Source: Chitinophagales bacterium
Lineage (GTDB): Bacteria > Bacteroidota > Bacteroidia > Chitinophagales > UBA2359
Direction: 5' to 3'
Assembly (NCBI GenBank): GCA_016787295.1
Contig: JAEUUX010000164.1
Location: forward strand, 1-64,000
DNA length: 64,000 nucleotides
The position numbers were made by a program, and so were the translations under genes. Numbering within the stretch: the first letter of the stretch is position 1; the number at the start of each line of letters is the position of its first letter. A model generated the notes under the pieces. That model was not told the origin of the DNA. It saw only the letters and a program-made list of their open reading frames with translations, and searched no databases. Below are positions 5,797 through 52,167 of this stretch, piece after piece.

Positions 5797-7185
5797 ATGA
5801 AAAAAAATCTTTTCTATAGCATATTGGTAGGTTTTGTAGGATTATTTTCGGTAGGTTGTGGAGACGAATACTTAGCATATCCACCATCTAATAGCATCAC
5901 GCTCGAAGAGTTTATTAGCACGCCCGAAGACGCACAAGCAGTCTTGAATAGTGCCTACAAAGCCCTTAGCCACAAAGATGCCTTGGGAGGAAATACCCAA
6001 TTTTTGGGCGAACTCATGGCAGACAACATTAGTGCAGCCCGCATTCAGGGCGACTGGCTGGCTCATTATACCTGGACTACTGACATCTTTTTAGGCACAA
6101 CCCGCAACCTTATGGCACAGTCTTTTCGTGTGGCAGGACGCGCCAATTTCTTGCTCGACAACATGAACTTGGTGACTGGTTTGAGCGAAGCTGAAAAAAC
6201 GCGAATGCGTGGCGAGGCTTTGTTTTTGCGTGCCATTCCACACTTCGAGTGTGTGCGTTTCTTTGGACAGCCGTATGGTTATACTTCGGGCAACACACAG
6301 TCCGGCATTGCTATCAGAACAGCATGGAGTAAAGATTTGGTCAATCGTTCATCAGTAGGCGAAGTCTATAACCAAATCATAGCCGACCTCAATGAAGCCA
6401 TCACCCTTTTGCCCGAATCACAAGACATATATGCCGACAAATGGGCAGCAAAAGGCTATTTGGCAAAAGTATATTTTCAGATGAACGACTTCCAAAAAGC
6501 CTACGACCTTGCCAACGATGTGATAAACAATGGCGGGTTTAGTATGGAAGCCGATTTGATGAAACGCTTTAATACCAGCGCAAGTTCCGAAACAATTTTT
6601 GAGACCGTGAGTGTGAGTTTGGGTGATGAATCCAACAATGGATTTAGAGACAACTTCCGTCCTGACCCAAGTACAGGTTTGGCAGCAGCCTATATGTCCA
6701 ACGATATGTTTGTGGCAGCCACTGCCAACCCCGATGATTTGCGAACACAACAATGGTATGTTGCCAACACAATGGGCAATATTGAATGCACCAAATTTCC
6801 TATCACCACCTATACACACGTCCCCATTGTGCATTTGACGGAAATGAAACTTATCAGAGCCGAAGCCGCCGCCGAATTGGGCAATACTACCACAGCTTTC
6901 CAAGACATTAACGATATTCGCACTCGTGCAGGTCTGGGTGAAGTGCCAGCAGGTACTACTACCAGCGACCTCATTACCATTATCCGCAACGAACGCCGCT
7001 TAGAATTGGTGGGCGAAGGCAACCGTTTGCACGAACTCAAACGACAAGCTGTACGCAACCGTCCCGACCTAAAAATTCGCGGTATAGCGCCTTGGGACTG
7101 TAATGGAATGGTGTGCCAAATTCCTGATAATGAACTAAGAGGCAATCCCGATATGGAACCCAACCCAACAGGTGGTTGTCAATAA
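5797..7185 (+). CDS. SusD/RagB-family substrate-binding lipoprotein
   Basis: A 462-residue protein with a lipoprotein signal (lipobox VGC near residue 22) and the family's typical features: an N-terminal helical half (STPEDAQAVLNSAYKAL), tetratricopeptide-like helices, and a C-terminal segment with LIRAEAAAELG and RRLELVGEGNRLHELKR. SusD proteins sit on the SusC barrel and bind the substrate. The gene follows the SusC-like gene by 18 bp and its stop lies 29 bp before the start of the next lipoprotein gene, so these genes form one operon. Confidence 0.95.
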   Translation: MKKNLFYSILVGFVGLFSVGCGDEYLAYPPSNSITLEEFISTPEDAQAVLNSAYKALSHKDALGGNTQFLGELMADNISAARIQGDWLAHYTWTTDIFLGTTRNLMAQSFRVAGRANFLLDNMNLVTGLSEAEKTRMRGEALFLRAIPHFECVRFFGQPYGYTSGNTQSGIAIRTAWSKDLVNRSSVGEVYNQIIADLNEAITLLPESQDIYADKWAAKGYLAKVYFQMNDFQKAYDLANDVINNGGFSMEADLMKRFNTSASSETIFETVSVSLGDESNNGFRDNFRPDPSTGLAAAYMSNDMFVAATANPDDLRTQQWYVANTMGNIECTKFPITTYTHVPIVHLTEMKLIRAEAAAELGNTTTAFQDINDIRTRAGLGEVPAGTTTSDLITIIRNERRLELVGEGNRLHELKRQAVRNRPDLKIRGIAPWDCNGMVCQIPDNELRGNPDMEPNPTGGCQ

Positions 7186-14674: not shown

Positions 14675-14898
14675 TGTTCTATTTTATCTATTTTGTCGGA
14701 AGAAAGTTGTTTTTGCTGTAAAAAATAAGGATATTTTTGTTCGAATGGCGAAGCGCGTTAGGGATGCGGAGGGTGGCGTTAGCCAGTGCGGAGAGCAACG
14801 CAGCACCAAGCGTAGCGAAGCCCGCAGCAGCCCGACCCGCAGGGAAACGCCCAAAAAAATCAATGAGTTATTATCGACTATTTAAGCAAAATGGAACA
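14675..14898 (+). mobile_element. MITE-like element, copy A (224 bp)
   Basis: Left end TGTTCTATTTT and right end AAAATGGAACA are imperfect inverted repeats of about 26 bp. Flanks are GTAG (14671-14674) and GTAA (14899-14902), a 4-bp target duplication with one change. Inside lies the GC-rich core at 14742-14852, shared with four other loci in the window. The element starts 19 bp after the secA stop, in the same orientation, and before the terminator. It encodes no transposase, so any movement would need an enzyme supplied in trans. Confidence 0.85.
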
Positions 14899-14908
14899 GT
14901 AATATATG

Positions 14909-14950
14909 AAAAAGCGCCTATTCGCTCATAGAACGAATAGGCGCTTTTTT
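14909..14950. terminator. Terminator between secA/repeat A and the EGF-like gene
   Basis: AAAAAGCGCCTATTCG (14909-14924) pairs with 14934-14950 through a 9-nt loop, flanked by A and T runs. Convergent genes on both sides can use it. Confidence 0.9.
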
Positions 14951-19173: not shown

Positions 19174-19284
19174 GGGCGTTTCCCTGCGGGTCGGGCTGCT
19201 GCGGGCTTCGCTACGCTTGGTGCTACGTTGCTCTCCGCACTGGCTAACGCCACCCTCCGCATCCCTAACGCGCTTCGCCACCCG
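19174..19284 (-). repeat. Structured repeat core, copy B (no clear terminal repeats)
   Basis: The core reads on the minus strand and matches copy A at almost every position (one visible change is gcaacg-T-agcac against gcaacg-C-agcac). Outside the core there is weak similarity to copy A on the left (GTTGTTTTTG.. about 45 bp upstream) and an AAGCAAAA..GGA trace on the right, so this may be a decayed full element. No target duplication is visible. Confidence 0.8.
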
Positions 19285-19854: not shown

Positions 19855-22800
19855 ATGCAGCAACATTCCTTACCTGACTACTTGTTCGAGACAAGTTGGG
19901 AAGTCTGTAACAAAGTAGGCGGTATCTATACCGTCATAGCCTCAAAAACACCTGTATTACGTCCTAAATTGGACGAAAGATTACTGTTCATTGGTCCCGA
20001 TGTATGGAAAGGCGAGGGCGAAAATCCCGATTTTACAGAGGATAAACAACTCTATAAGGCATGGCGCGAACAGGCTTTAAGCGAAGGTTTGAAGATTCGG
20101 ATAGGCTATTGGAACATTCCCGACCGTCCTATTGCTATTCTTATTGACTTCACACCTTTGTTTTCACAAAAAAACGACATTTTTACTGACCTCTGGCTTA
20201 ATTTTCAGTTAGACTCCATCGATGGTGGTTGGGATTACATAGAGCCGGCTTTGTTTGGCTATGCAGCGGGCAAGGTCATCGAAAGTTTTGCCCATTTTCA
20301 TGCCACCATTACACCGAGCATTGTGGCACAATTCCACGAATGGATGACCGGCACTGGCATTCTCTATCTTCGTCAAAATCTACCTCATGTAGCTACTGTT
20401 TTCACAACCCACGCCACTGTTTTAGGGCGTTGTATTGCGGGCAATGGTATGCCATTGTATGAATCCTTATCAACCTATAAAGCCGAACAGTTGGCGCGAC
20501 AATTTGGGGTGACCGCCAAGCAGTCGCTCGAAAAAACGAGCGCCCATCATGCCGATTGTTTTACGACCGTGAGCCAGTTGACCGCCAAAGAGTGCGCACA
20601 GTTTTTGCAAAAAACAGTCGATTTGGTGACTCCCAATGGTTTTGACGATGCGTTTGTGCCTGCCAATGCCGAAGCCCTGCAACAAGCACGCAACAAAGCC
20701 CGACAAAAATTGTTATCTGTTGCCGAAGCCGTGTGCCATTCTCCCATCGATTCCGATGCTTATTTGGTAGTGACAAGCGGACGCTATGAATTTCACAACA
20801 AAGGGATAGATATTTTTATTGATGCTCTCCATACCTTGCACCAACAAAACCTTGAACGTTGTCTTGTTGCCTACATTATGGTGCCAGCTCATCATGCAGG
20901 GGTACGTCGTTCTTTGTTAGACCATTTACAGCATGGCAACGCAGCAACTACCACTGATGACAACCGCATTTTGACCCATCATTTGCACAATCCCGAACAA
21001 GACCCCGTGTTGCAACGTTTAGCAAAATATGGCTTATACAATGCACCTGATAGCCGCATCAAAGTTATTTTTGTGCCAAGCTATCTCAATGGACACGATG
21101 AATTGTTTAATGTTTCTTACTATGATTTACTCGTTGGGTGCGATCTTTCTGTTTTCCCATCCTATTATGAACCTTGGGGTTACACACCTTTGGAGAGTTT
21201 GGCGTTTGGTGTGCCAACCATTACAACCACTTTGGCAGGTTTTGGTTTGTGGGCAAAAGAAAAATTAGCAGGTTTGCATTCGGGTTTAAGTGTCATTGAA
21301 CGCACCGACAGCAACGACGCAACCGTTGTGGAACAAGTTGCTCAACAAATATTGAAAGCCACTTTGCAGTCACCACAAGCCGAACACTATGCTCGCCAAG
21401 CCGCGCGCGAAATTTCTTTTATTGCTCGTTGGGATAATCTTATACAATATTATTATTCAGCCTATCATATAGCCCTTCAACAAGCCGCCGAACGACAACC
21501 TACTATGGGAATAAGTATGCCAATGTTACAAACTATTAATACTTATGCCGAGCCGTTGGCAGATGAACCCAAATGGAAGCGCGTTTTGATTACAGCAAGT
21601 TTACCACCTCAATTGATACCTCTACAAGAGATGGTACAAAATCTGTGGTGGTGCTGGCAACCCGACGCACAACGTTTGTTGGCAGCTATTAAACCTGAAT
21701 GGTGGCAAAAAAATGACCAAAATCCCATTGCCCTTCTTGATGCTTTGACGGTGGAAGACTATCAACGTTTGCAACATGATAATGATTTTATGACTTTGTT
21801 GCAAAACGTGTATGCTCGTTTCCAACAATATATGGAAAGTCCATACGCCCCAAATTCGCCACAAATAGCCTATTTTTGTATGGAATATGGCTTACACCAC
21901 ACCCTAAAATTGTATTCAGGCGGTTTGGGAATTCTGGCAGGAGACTACCTAAAAGAAGCCTCCGACTCGCGCTGCAATATGGTAGCAATAGGTTTATTGT
22001 ATCGTTATGGCTATTTTACGCAGCAAATTTCGGCAAAAGGCGAGCAGATAGACCACTACGAACCGCAGCGTTTTTCGCATTTGCCTTTGCACCCTGTCAA
22101 AGACGAACAAGGTAATTGGGTGCGCATTAGCTTGCCGTTACCGGGACGTTTGTTATATGCCAAAATCTGGCAAGTCCCTGTGGGGCGCATTAATTTGTAT
22201 TTGTTGGATACCGATATTTCTGAAAATAGCGAAGAAGACCGAACTATTACACACCGCTTGTATGGTGGCGATTGGGAAATGCGCCTTAAGCAAGAGATAT
22301 TGTTGGGTATTGGCGGTGTGCGGTTGCTCAAAATTTTGCAGTACAAACCCGACCTTTTCCACCTCAACGAAGGTCATGCGGCTTTTTCAGGTTTGGAACG
22401 TTTGCGCCTAATGGTCAACGAACAATCGTTACAATTGGACGAAGCCTTAGAATTGGTGCGTGGCAGTTCGTTGTTTACCACGCATACACCTGTTCCAGCG
22501 GGTCATGATGCGTTTAGCGAAGATCTTTTGCGTGCCTATCTGTCCAATTATTCCGACGAACTGCACTTGTCTTGGCAAGATTTTATGGCAATGGGCAAAA
22601 TCAACCAATATGATGTGTCCGAAAAATTCTCGATGTCGCATTTAGCCATTCGCACTTCACAAGGTATTAATGGTGTTTCACGCATACATGGTGCCGTTTC
22701 GCGCGATATGTTTTTACCTTTATGGAAAGGCTATACAGCCCAAGAGTTACATGTAGGTTATGTCACCAATGGAGTGCATTATCCGACTTGGGTGGCACCC

Positions 22801-24108
22801 GAATGGGACGCACTATATAGACAAACCTTTGGCGAGGCTTTTTTAGAAGACCAATCCAATACCGCTTTTTGGCAACACATAGAAACAGTAGAAGACGAAA
22901 CGCTTTGGCAAATTCGCCTACAACGCAAACGTCTTTTGTTAGACCATGTTCGCCATTTGTTGCAATATGAACTAAAAAAACGCCAACGAAGCCCACGCGA
23001 CATTGTCAACCTTACGAAGAGCCTACAGCCCGAAAGCCTCATTATTGGCTTTGCTCGACGTTTTGCAACCTATAAACGCGCCCAATTATTGTTTAGCGAT
23101 CCCGAACGTTTGCTACAAATCGTAAACGATTCCGACCGTCCTATTTTGTTTCTTTTTGCAGGCAAAGCTCACCCCGCCGACAAGGCAGGACAACAACTGA
23201 TTCAACAAATCGTGAACCTAAGCGAACAACCCGCTTGGCGCGGCAAAGTTTTGTTTTTGGAAAACTATGATATGCAGTTGGCTCGTTTGTTGGTACAAGG
23301 TGTAGATGTGTGGCTCAATACACCAACACGCCCCTTGGAAGCAAGCGGCACAAGTGGCATGAAAGCAGCAATGAATGGAGTGCTTAATTTTTCGGTTTTG
23401 GACGGTTGGTGGGCAGAAGCATATACTCCACAAGCAGGCTGGGCATTGACACAAGAACGCACCTATCCGCCACAATACCAAGATTATCAGAACGAATTGG
23501 ACGCACAAACGATTTATAATATTTTGGAAAATGATTTGGTTCCATTATATTTTCAACGCGATGCCAATCAAATTCCAACAGCTTGGCTCCAAAAAGTGAA
23601 AGCCAATATTGCAACAGTAGCGCCACGATTTACCACCAAACGCATGTTGGACGACTACCGAACGCGCTATTATCAGCCTTTGTTTGAGCGTATACAGTGG
23701 TTGCGTGCCGATAGCCAAGTAGCCGCCTTAGATTTGGCACGTTGGAAAAGAAATGTTAGGCGCAATTGGGAGCAAATAAGCGTTTTGAGTACGCAAATGT
23801 TAGATACTTCTAATCATGCTTTGTCGCTGACCGATACTTTTACGGCTACCATTACGCTACAAATTGGCGAATTACAAAGTAGCGATATTGCGGTCACTTT
23901 GTTAATCATTGAACGTACCTCTGAAACCGATTTCAGAATTGTATTGCGCCAAAGTCTTGGTGTGAAAGAAAGTGGCGATGGCATAGCGGTATATCAATGT
24001 ACTATTTCGCCTGAAGTGGCAGGCGTATTTGACTATGGTTTCCGCATTAGTCCACAGCACCCAGGTTTACCCTATTCCGAAGATTTTGGTCTGGTGCGCT
24101 GGGTATAA
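19855..24108 (+). CDS. Fused glycogen synthase (GT3) - glycogen/alpha-glucan phosphorylase (GT35)
   Basis: A 1417-residue two-enzyme fusion. Residues about 1-560 are a GT3 glycogen synthase: LFETSWEVCNKVGGIYTVI at the start, THATVLGR, and the paired glutamates of EPWGYTPLE (Glu439, Glu447). A linker follows, then residues about 580-1417 form an alpha-glucan phosphorylase of the short type: EYGLHHTLKLYSGGLGILAGDYLK, LNEGHAAF, THTPVPAGHDAF, and the pyridoxal-phosphate site EASGTSGMKAA with Lys1170. One half would add glucose from a nucleotide sugar, the other would release glucose-1-phosphate, so regulation must decide the direction. Related fusions exist in other Bacteroidota. It stands alone, with a hairpin at 24123-24160. 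Confidence 0.92.
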   Translation: MQQHSLPDYLFETSWEVCNKVGGIYTVIASKTPVLRPKLDERLLFIGPDVWKGEGENPDFTEDKQLYKAWREQALSEGLKIRIGYWNIPDRPIAILIDFTPLFSQKNDIFTDLWLNFQLDSIDGGWDYIEPALFGYAAGKVIESFAHFHATITPSIVAQFHEWMTGTGILYLRQNLPHVATVFTTHATVLGRCIAGNGMPLYESLSTYKAEQLARQFGVTAKQSLEKTSAHHADCFTTVSQLTAKECAQFLQKTVDLVTPNGFDDAFVPANAEALQQARNKARQKLLSVAEAVCHSPIDSDAYLVVTSGRYEFHNKGIDIFIDALHTLHQQNLERCLVAYIMVPAHHAGVRRSLLDHLQHGNAATTTDDNRILTHHLHNPEQDPVLQRLAKYGLYNAPDSRIKVIFVPSYLNGHDELFNVSYYDLLVGCDLSVFPSYYEPWGYTPLESLAFGVPTITTTLAGFGLWAKEKLAGLHSGLSVIERTDSNDATVVEQVAQQILKATLQSPQAEHYARQAAREISFIARWDNLIQYYYSAYHIALQQAAERQPTMGISMPMLQTINTYAEPLADEPKWKRVLITASLPPQLIPLQEMVQNLWWCWQPDAQRLLAAIKPEWWQKNDQNPIALLDALTVEDYQRLQHDNDFMTLLQNVYARFQQYMESPYAPNSPQIAYFCMEYGLHHTLKLYSGGLGILAGDYLKEASDSRCNMVAIGLLYRYGYFTQQISAKGEQIDHYEPQRFSHLPLHPVKDEQGNWVRISLPLPGRLLYAKIWQVPVGRINLYLLDTDISENSEEDRTITHRLYGGDWEMRLKQEILLGIGGVRLLKILQYKPDLFHLNEGHAAFSGLERLRLMVNEQSLQLDEALELVRGSSLFTTHTPVPAGHDAFSEDLLRAYLSNYSDELHLSWQDFMAMGKINQYDVSEKFSMSHLAIRTSQGINGVSRIHGAVSRDMFLPLWKGYTAQELHVGYVTNGVHYPTWVAPEWDALYRQTFGEAFLEDQSNTAFWQHIETVEDETLWQIRLQRKRLLLDHVRHLLQYELKKRQRSPRDIVNLTKSLQPESLIIGFARRFATYKRAQLLFSDPERLLQIVNDSDRPILFLFAGKAHPADKAGQQLIQQIVNLSEQPAWRGKVLFLENYDMQLARLLVQGVDVWLNTPTRPLEASGTSGMKAAMNGVLNFSVLDGWWAEAYTPQAGWALTQERTYPPQYQDYQNELDAQTIYNILENDLVPLYFQRDANQIPTAWLQKVKANIATVAPRFTTKRMLDDYRTRYYQPLFERIQWLRADSQVAALDLARWKRNVRRNWEQISVLSTQMLDTSNHALSLTDTFTATITLQIGELQSSDIAVTLLIIERTSETDFRIVLRQSLGVKESGDGIAVYQCTISPEVAGVFDYGFRISPQHPGLPYSEDFGLVRWV

Positions 24109-26113: not shown

Positions 26114-26195
26114 TTGGGTTTGAGCGACCTTTTCTCTGTGTGTTATTTTTTAATACAACGTCTTTGTCTTACAAATTATGCACTGTGTTGCCTCG

Positions 26196-26420
26196 TGTTC
26201 TATTTTATCTATTTTGTCGGAAAAAACTGTTTTTGCCGTAAAAAAATAACGATATGTTTGTTTGAATGGCGAAGCGCGTTAGGGATGCGGAGGGTGGCGT
26301 TAGCCAGTGCGGAGAGCAACGCAGCACCAAGCGAAGCGAAGCCCGTAGCAGCCCGACCCGCAGGGAAACGCCCAAATAAATCAATGCCTTATTATCGGAC
26401 TATTTAACCAAAATGGAACA
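26196..26420 (+). mobile_element. MITE-like element, copy C (225 bp)
   Basis: Left end TGTTCTATTTT, right end AAAATGGAACA, flanked by the perfect 4-bp duplication CTCG (26192-26195 and 26421-26424). The core lies at 26263-26373. It follows the cysteine-less thioredoxin gene by 82 bp in the same orientation, and separates it from its cysteine-containing relative. No coding capacity of its own is supported. Confidence 0.88.
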
Positions 26421-26653
26421 CTCGTTACTTATTTCATCACACTAAAACAACAATGAATCCATACTCTTCCTGCTTTGTTTGGAAGTAACAAACCACAATA
26501 GCACAGGCTGCAAAAAGCGGTTTTGGGTGTGGTTAGCTTACTAATCGAACATTTTTTTAGAACAAAATTGCTAATCGAACTTTTCCGCTACCTAATTTTC
26601 TTTAACTTACCCTCCCCTTTCGTGCTTCCCCTTGCTCATTTAAATTGTTGTTT

Positions 26654-40125: not shown

Positions 40126-40229
40126 CGAATGGCGAAGCGCGTTAGGGATTGTAAGGGCAGCCGCAGGCTGGTGCTTGCACCGAAGCGGAGCGTAGCCCTG
40201 TAAAGCCCGACCCCAACGGGGAAACGCCC
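40126..40229 (+). repeat. Structured repeat core, copy D (divergent, no terminal repeats)
   Basis: Shares the first 23 bases (from CGAATGGCG to GGGAT) and the last bases (GGGAAACGCCC) with the other copies but differs strongly in between. Despite this the helices persist: CAGCC-GCA-GGCTG where others have TGGC-GTTA-GCCA, GGTGC-TT-GCACC where others have a longer GTGC..GCAC stem, and CCCC-AAC-GGGG where others have CCC-GCA-GGG. No TGTTC/GGAACA ends or target duplication. It lies between recA and a lipoprotein gene, oriented opposite to both. Confidence 0.8.
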
Positions 40230-51926: not shown

Positions 51927-51936
51927 ATCCTACTAT

Positions 51937-52161
51937 TGTTTCATTTTAACTATTTTGTCGGAAAAAAGCTGTTTTTGCTATAAAAAATAAGGATATATTT
52001 GTTCGAATGGCGAAGCGCGTTAGGGATACGGAGGGTGGCGTTAGCCAGTGCGTAGCTTGCGAAGCACCGTAGCGGCAGCGAAGCCCGTAGCAGCCCGACC
52101 CGCAGGGAAACGCCCAAAAAATCAATGTATTATTATCGGACTATTTAGTCAAAATGGAACA
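51937..52161 (+). mobile_element. MITE-like element, copy E (225 bp)
   Basis: Left end TGTTTCATTTT, right end AAAATGGAACA; the 26-bp ends match in about 20 positions. Flanking duplication CTAT is perfect (51933-51936 and 52162-52165). The core at 52004-52115 differs from copies A and C in the middle (TACGG against TGCGG, and a rearranged stem with GCTTGC). The element starts 10 bp after the recR stop and ends 6 bp before the protease stop codon. Confidence 0.88.
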
Positions 52162-52167
52162 CTATAG

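Follow-up and report, generated by a model that had tools for sequence, protein, structure and literature searches.

A dispersed structured repeat of a Chitinophagales genome, a diverged branch of the Flavo-1 superfamily, and its carriage by a MITE

The Flavo-1 RNA (RF01705) was described by Weinberg et al. in 2010 (PMC2864571). It is classed as an sRNA by Rfam. In the transcriptome of F. psychrophilum, Flavo-1 matches lie sense or antisense alike and many fall outside transcribed regions, and some 5' transcribed regions coincide with Flavo-1 (PMC9723704). Other described systems resemble the repeat reported here in part. The REP/BIME elements served by RAYT transposases are short, palindromic, dispersed intergenic repeats that form DNA hairpins and are probably moved as ssDNA; the present family is much larger and multi-branched, is accompanied by no Y1/RAYT gene, and occurs in several phyla and on plasmids. 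Integron attC sites share the principle of a folded single strand that serves as recombination substrate, but the present family has neither the RYYYAAC/GTTRRRY pair nor cassette arrays, and an attC reading was rejected because position 5 of the closing stem P1 varies (T/G/A). The MITEs of DDE transposons share the unit with terminal inverted repeats (TIRs) and NTAN duplications, but here a structured core rides as cargo.

The window, a stretch of 64,000 nucleotides from contig JAEUUX010000164.1 of a Chitinophagales bacterium, contains five copies of the repeat, termed A to E. An earlier note made from the letters of the window had placed them at 14742-14852, 19174-19284, 26263-26373, 40126-40229 and 52004-52115, and all were present there; it gave no strand for copy B, the one copy on the - strand; the other four are on the + strand. 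Copies A, C and E continue past the core as TIR elements of about 225 bp. The features, with core borders as used here, are as follows.

14675 to 14898, + strand: MITE carrying copy A, left TIR TGTTCTATTTTATCTATTTTGTCGGAA, right end AAAATGGAACA
14747 to 14852, + strand: structured core of copy A, A-type, P1 formed by GCGTT (14755-14759) with AACGC (14846-14850)
19174 to 19279, - strand: structured core of copy B, A-type, bare, no TIRs recognised
26196 to 26420, + strand: MITE carrying copy C, 4-bp duplication CTCG at 26192-26195 and 26421-26424
26268 to 26373, + strand: structured core of copy C, A-type
40131 to 40229, + strand: structured core of copy D, D-type, bare, imperfect hairpin GGCCTTAGCC about 35 nt 5' of the core
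51937 to 52161, + strand: MITE carrying copy E, 4-bp duplication CTAT at 51933-51936 and 52162-52165
52009 to 52115, + strand: structured core of copy E, A-type, the most divergent A-type of the window

The 4-mers flanking the MITE of copy A (GTAG/GTAA) form an imperfect duplication. Copy A is flanked by secA and a convergent gene, copy B by genes for a saccharopine dehydrogenase and for a glycogen synthase-phosphorylase fusion, and copy C by two thioredoxin-fold genes. Copy D is located upstream of recA; copy E has recR and a papain-like protease as neighbours. The fusion next to copy B is a single long ORF (19855-24108) that joins glycogen synthase, DUF3417 and glycogen phosphorylase domains. 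A perfect 16-bp hairpin with A and T runs, resembling a bidirectional terminator, occupies about 14908-14950 next to copy A, in the interval that separates secA from the convergent gene.

The base changes named earlier for the helices of A to E were all confirmed: A and B have TGCGG/CCGCA, C has TGCGG/CCGTA and E has TACGG/CCGTA, and the letters also show the swaps of TGGC-GTTA-GCCA with CAGCC-GCA-GGCTG, of CCC-GCA-GGG with CCCC-AAC-GGGG and of the GTGC..GCAC hairpin with GGTGC-TT-GCACC. The register of the middle helix (TGCGG/CCGCA) did not stand and was replaced with the help of distant copies. The consensus fold now has a mini-hairpin GGC-GAA-GC at the 5' edge and the closing stem P1 (GCGTT/AACGC), followed by a long arm in which GGG/CCC is succeeded by an A.G pair, a U-A pair and one Watson-Crick pair free to vary, then by a GNA/GNA internal loop and by GGG(C)/(G)CCC. 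The inner hairpins Pa, Pb and Pc and a 3' hairpin P6 (CCC-GCA-GGG) complete the fold.

Rfam searches of the whole window, at the gathering threshold and at E<=1, returned nothing, and HEARO was likewise unmatched; the window copies had no match to RF01705 at E<=1 and lie below its gathering score of 42 bits. A covariance model built from the window family (R1) found copies in 16 of 296 Bacteroidota genomes, the own genome counted. At the flavobacterial loci L087, L089, L102, L103 and L109, R1 and RF01705 match the same place on the same strand, with 57-67 bits for RF01705; flavobacterial and plasmid relatives reach 45-67 bits against that model. Since the flavobacterial versions pass the RF01705 threshold and the window copies do not, the latter are a branch of the Flavo-1 superfamily that is strongly diverged, carries extensions and has been amplified. 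Both share the arms GATTGNAGYGG ... GATTGNARCGGAAAGC and symmetric GNA/GNA internal loops, on the same strand. The window copies differ by P1, the 3' hairpin P6 and a three-hairpin centre, all without counterpart in the Rfam model, by amplification to at least 161 copies, by carriage in a MITE and by a strand that may act as DNA. The central cargo of the long arm consists of three small hairpins in the own genome and of one long hairpin in Flavobacterium. The earlier note had recognised no family, and missed the link to Flavo-1 (RF01705) together with the mobility and the MITE carrier with its TIRs and 4-bp duplications. Literature searches by sequence strings gave chance matches only. A GTDB pattern scan for GCGTNAGGGAT...AGCCCGACC listed matches in Flavobacteria, Chitinophagaceae, Saprospiraceae, Bacteroidales, Treponema and Fibrobacter, with isolated ones, among those listed, in Demequina, a Myxococcales MAG and others. 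The family of short mobile elements occurs mainly in Bacteroidota.

The genome (5.42 Mb in 296 contigs, 98% complete) contains at least 150 copies according to DNA and covariance searches. A total of 161 distinct copies was extracted, a lower bound for the genome, comprising 71 A-type copies (like A, B, C and E) and 90 D-type copies (like D). Several contigs terminate within a copy, as is expected when a repeat interrupts assembly. In the Bacteroidia MAG SKYG108 the copies are very dense, frequently with several in 8 kb, and lie in composite repeats (L112, L117, L121, L139, L145, L149, L161, L169, L171, L213, L215). Two copy pairs on G095:C1 (14-111 with 6125-6208, and 3142859-3142956 with 3148969-3149052), about 3.14 Mb apart, have the same scores and spacing and thus probably mark a duplicated segment of about 6 kb.

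The structure of the repeat is conserved well beyond chance. In 70 distinct D-type copies 99.1% of the cells hold standard pairs, a share that drops to 30-52% if the partner is displaced by 1-3 columns. Eight pairs are changed on both sides, with 64 cells carrying such changes, a result reached by none of 500 shuffles. The changes include CAGCC/GGCTG to CTGCC/GGCAG in 11 copies and to CAACCT/AGGTTG in two, AGGGC/GCCCT to the GGGGC/GCCCC type in 33, GGGC/GCCC to the GAGGC/GCCTC type in 11, and GGGAT..AGCCC to GAGAT..AGCTC in two. The stem cells counted comprised 1874 Watson-Crick pairs, five G.T and no A.C, which identifies the + strand as the one that folds; in a folding comparison with the complement, 67/70 and 35/40 copies had the more stable fold on the + strand. 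The pair inside GGGAU/AGCCC that the search pattern had left free is Watson-Crick in 108 of 117 distinct public-genome copies among the matches listed (AT 50, TA 38, GC 15, CG 5, others 9), compared with a mean of 41.6 and a maximum of 58 in 10000 shuffles. The fifth P1 pair across public-genome copies is GC in 48 and TA in 44, with three mismatches among the readable ones, and the GNA/GNA internal loop recurs in 42 diverse copies (G.A in 35/42, A.G in 25/42). The earlier claim that structure and not protein is kept is borne out by many compensatory changes within the genome and across phyla.

Most A-type copies have spread as cargo of a MITE with TIRs and 4-bp duplications. The common flanks of A-type copies, about 70 nt on the left and about 45 nt on the right, are the ends of the unit of about 225 bp with TIRs TGTTCNRTTTTANCTATTTTGTCGGAA. 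These ends were found at 63 genome sites, and the reversed pattern at none. Both ends are present in 53 units, 16 of which are bordered by an exact 4-bp duplication (CTAT, GTAG, CTAC, ATAG, TTAG or CTCG), whereas shuffling gave a mean of 5.1 and a maximum of 14 in 2000 runs. About 46 of 69 A-type copies, including A, C and E, lie inside such a unit with NTAN duplications; conversely, 71 of 89 D-type cores lack the MITE TIRs. At L263 (2105-2210) and L266 (about 2600-2745) of the G000 genome, TIR units of this MITE class lack the structured core, which means that the MITE exists independently of the core. Together with the D-type cores that lack TIRs, such units indicate that the MITE carries the core as cargo and that the core also occurs alone. 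The carrier is presumably akin to the MITEs of IS5/IS427-like DDE transposons with a 4-bp NTAN duplication. As to an autonomous partner, the genome gave one partial match to a DDE_3 transposase, which was uninformative.

Bare copies, too, disperse as units. Full copies are carried on plasmids of Bacteroides, Phocaeicola, Chryseobacterium, Moraxella and Paraclostridium, and the family is dispersed in many copies and borne on plasmids across phyla. A single M. ovis plasmid bears two copies that, together with a third from an M. bovoculi plasmid, are near-identical over about 155 nt and differ in their flanks. The identity begins at GCGTTAGGG and stops at AACGCCCA, so the mobile unit ends at its own P1 stem. 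Bare D-type copies showed no convincing target duplication at any register, and no empty sites were found for bare copies, the Bacteroides plasmid relatives that were compared all having the element. An extra hairpin GGC-GNNA-GCC is located about 35 nt upstream of 22 of the 71 bare D-type copies and downstream of none, which gives a two-module element. Orthologous intergenic places are kept across species and genera (L093/L094/L097/L134/L190; L140/L168/L207/L217; L113/L124/L172; L102/L175/L198), next to aldehyde dehydrogenase, M20 peptidase, trpB and nifU-like genes, and the type of inner hairpin differs between species at one and the same place. Kept places with differing inner cargo suggest turnover or replacement at fixed sites; such places could also mean a local function, which counts against a mobile ssDNA.

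The explanation that we consider somewhat the more probable is a short mobile element, a branch of the Flavo-1 superfamily, whose + strand folds as ssDNA and is handled by some enzyme. The unit measures about 100-160 nt and is delimited at both ends by P1 (GCGTN/N'ACGC), inside which a long arm on GGGAU...AGCCC with GNA/GNA internal loops bears the variable hairpin cargo, next to the small 3' hairpin CCC-GNA-GGG. The active species would be the + strand, exposed in replication, repair or conjugation, and an enzyme that recognises this fold may copy or move the unit. The compensatory changes between copies would then reflect selection on recognition of the fold. Against this reading, the search for a mobilising enzyme found none, with no Y1 transposase in the own genome and none near copies elsewhere, and nine complete genomes showed no lagging-strand bias of the copies (52 versus 37, p=0.14). 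A bias of 34/49 that had looked significant in the first four genomes was dropped on the count of 52/89 over all nine.

An alternative is a structured RNA, acting in trans as an sRNA or in cis within the leaders or 3' ends of mRNAs, and selected for RNA folding. It is fitted equally well by the covariation, agrees with the sRNA type given to RF01705 by Rfam and with the F. psychrophilum 5' transcribed regions that coincide with Flavo-1, and could account for the copies at conserved intergenic places. A promoter-like box TAnnTTTG stands at a fixed place just upstream of the core in 39 of 69 A-type copies. This box is the main hint of transcription and is compatible with it, but it precedes only 3 of 90 D-type copies. 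The orientation of the copies is mixed: relative to genes of the own genome, 18 are tandem-sense, 13 antisense, 14 convergent and 7 divergent, and GTDB copies are biased to antisense (15 sense versus 34 antisense, p=0.009; 20 convergent, 20 divergent). The published transcriptome likewise places Flavo-1 hits in both senses and often in untranscribed regions, which speaks against an RNA. The loops point the same way. Those of Pa are GNA or GNNA in 89 of 89 copies, and the tetraloops over Pa, Pc and P6 comprise about 84 GNYA versus 9 GNRA. GNA minihairpins, e.g. GCGAAGC, are exceptionally stable as DNA, and to our knowledge GNYA is not a favoured RNA tetraloop. A loop argument of this kind, in the opposite direction, was applied to the STAXI motif by the authors who discovered Flavo-1 (PMC2864571). 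Folding with DNA rather than RNA parameters recovered more of the covarying pairs (60% vs 22.5% in own D-type copies, about 78-79% vs 59% in diverse copies); tRNA controls also move slightly towards DNA (0.73 vs 0.65) and the 70 D-type copies are related sequences, so that this comparison is weak and serves as support only. Overall, a structured RNA is rather unlikely; the earlier wording 'folded RNA or ssDNA' was a fair description of evidence that leans to DNA, and a folded DNA is favoured over an RNA, although not proven.

A second alternative places the origin of the fold in conjugative elements, as an ssDNA signal (a Frpo-like folded promoter or a single-strand initiation site) by which incoming ssDNA would be transcribed or primed, later scattered over chromosomes. 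Many conjugative Bacteroides plasmids carry the element beside a recombinase gene, mostly with an ArdC-like gene too, a Moraxella plasmid copy lies about 1.4 kb from an antirestriction gene, and the tendency of GTDB genes to run antisense to the + strand is as expected were that strand the template. The great number of chromosomal copies in one genome (at least 161) and the want of any known promoter activity make this origin improbable. At L398 (3459-3535) and in about 30 near-identical Bacteroides plasmids the stop codon of the recombinase gene borders directly on the element, and a gene near the element in most of these plasmids encodes an ArdC-like ssDNA-binding protein, a possible link to conjugative ssDNA.

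A transcription terminator or mRNA 3'-end stabiliser, to which stable intergenic hairpins downstream of genes (A after secA, E after recR) might point, is very improbable: no T run follows the structure in either direction, copies also occur in divergent and antisense settings, and copy A is followed by the separate perfect hairpin with its own T run. The role at the secA and recR mRNA 3' ends implied by the earlier note is not supported, copies being found in every gene orientation and copy A being followed by that separate hairpin. A REP/BIME-type element moved by a RAYT (Y1/HUH) transposase would likewise be multi-copy, intergenic, palindromic, present in both orientations and conserved in the fold of one strand, but is scarcely credible and largely refuted, as Y1_Tnp is absent from the copy-richest genome (the own genome) and from G068, and the distance between Y1 genes elsewhere and the copy closest to them is 48-640 kb, with none within copy flanks.

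Returning to the mobile element with a folded + strand, a wider and more tentative proposal is that 'Flavo-1 RNA' and its relatives might form a class of mobile folded ssDNA that ends at its own P1, holds swappable hairpin cargo, and is moved by a non-Y1 enzyme without target duplication. Its spread would then span Bacteroidota, Spirochaetes and Fibrobacterota, with plasmids having taken it into Gammaproteobacteria and Bacillota. Flavo-1 has been filed as an sRNA since 2010. Its place in a larger family of mobile, plasmid-borne structured elements shifts the question from the gene regulated by Flavo-1 to the mover and reader of the fold. If the family acts as DNA, it would be a large natural case of selected ssDNA folding beyond integrons, REPs and transfer origins, and its annotation as an RNA gene by pipelines would be an error. 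For other orphan 'RNA' families, the type of loop and the statistics of orientation offer a simple test.

Apart from the repeat family, the window contains 21-nt tandem repeats at 120-329, about seven units inside an ORF, which encode a Lys/Gln/Asp-rich stretch.
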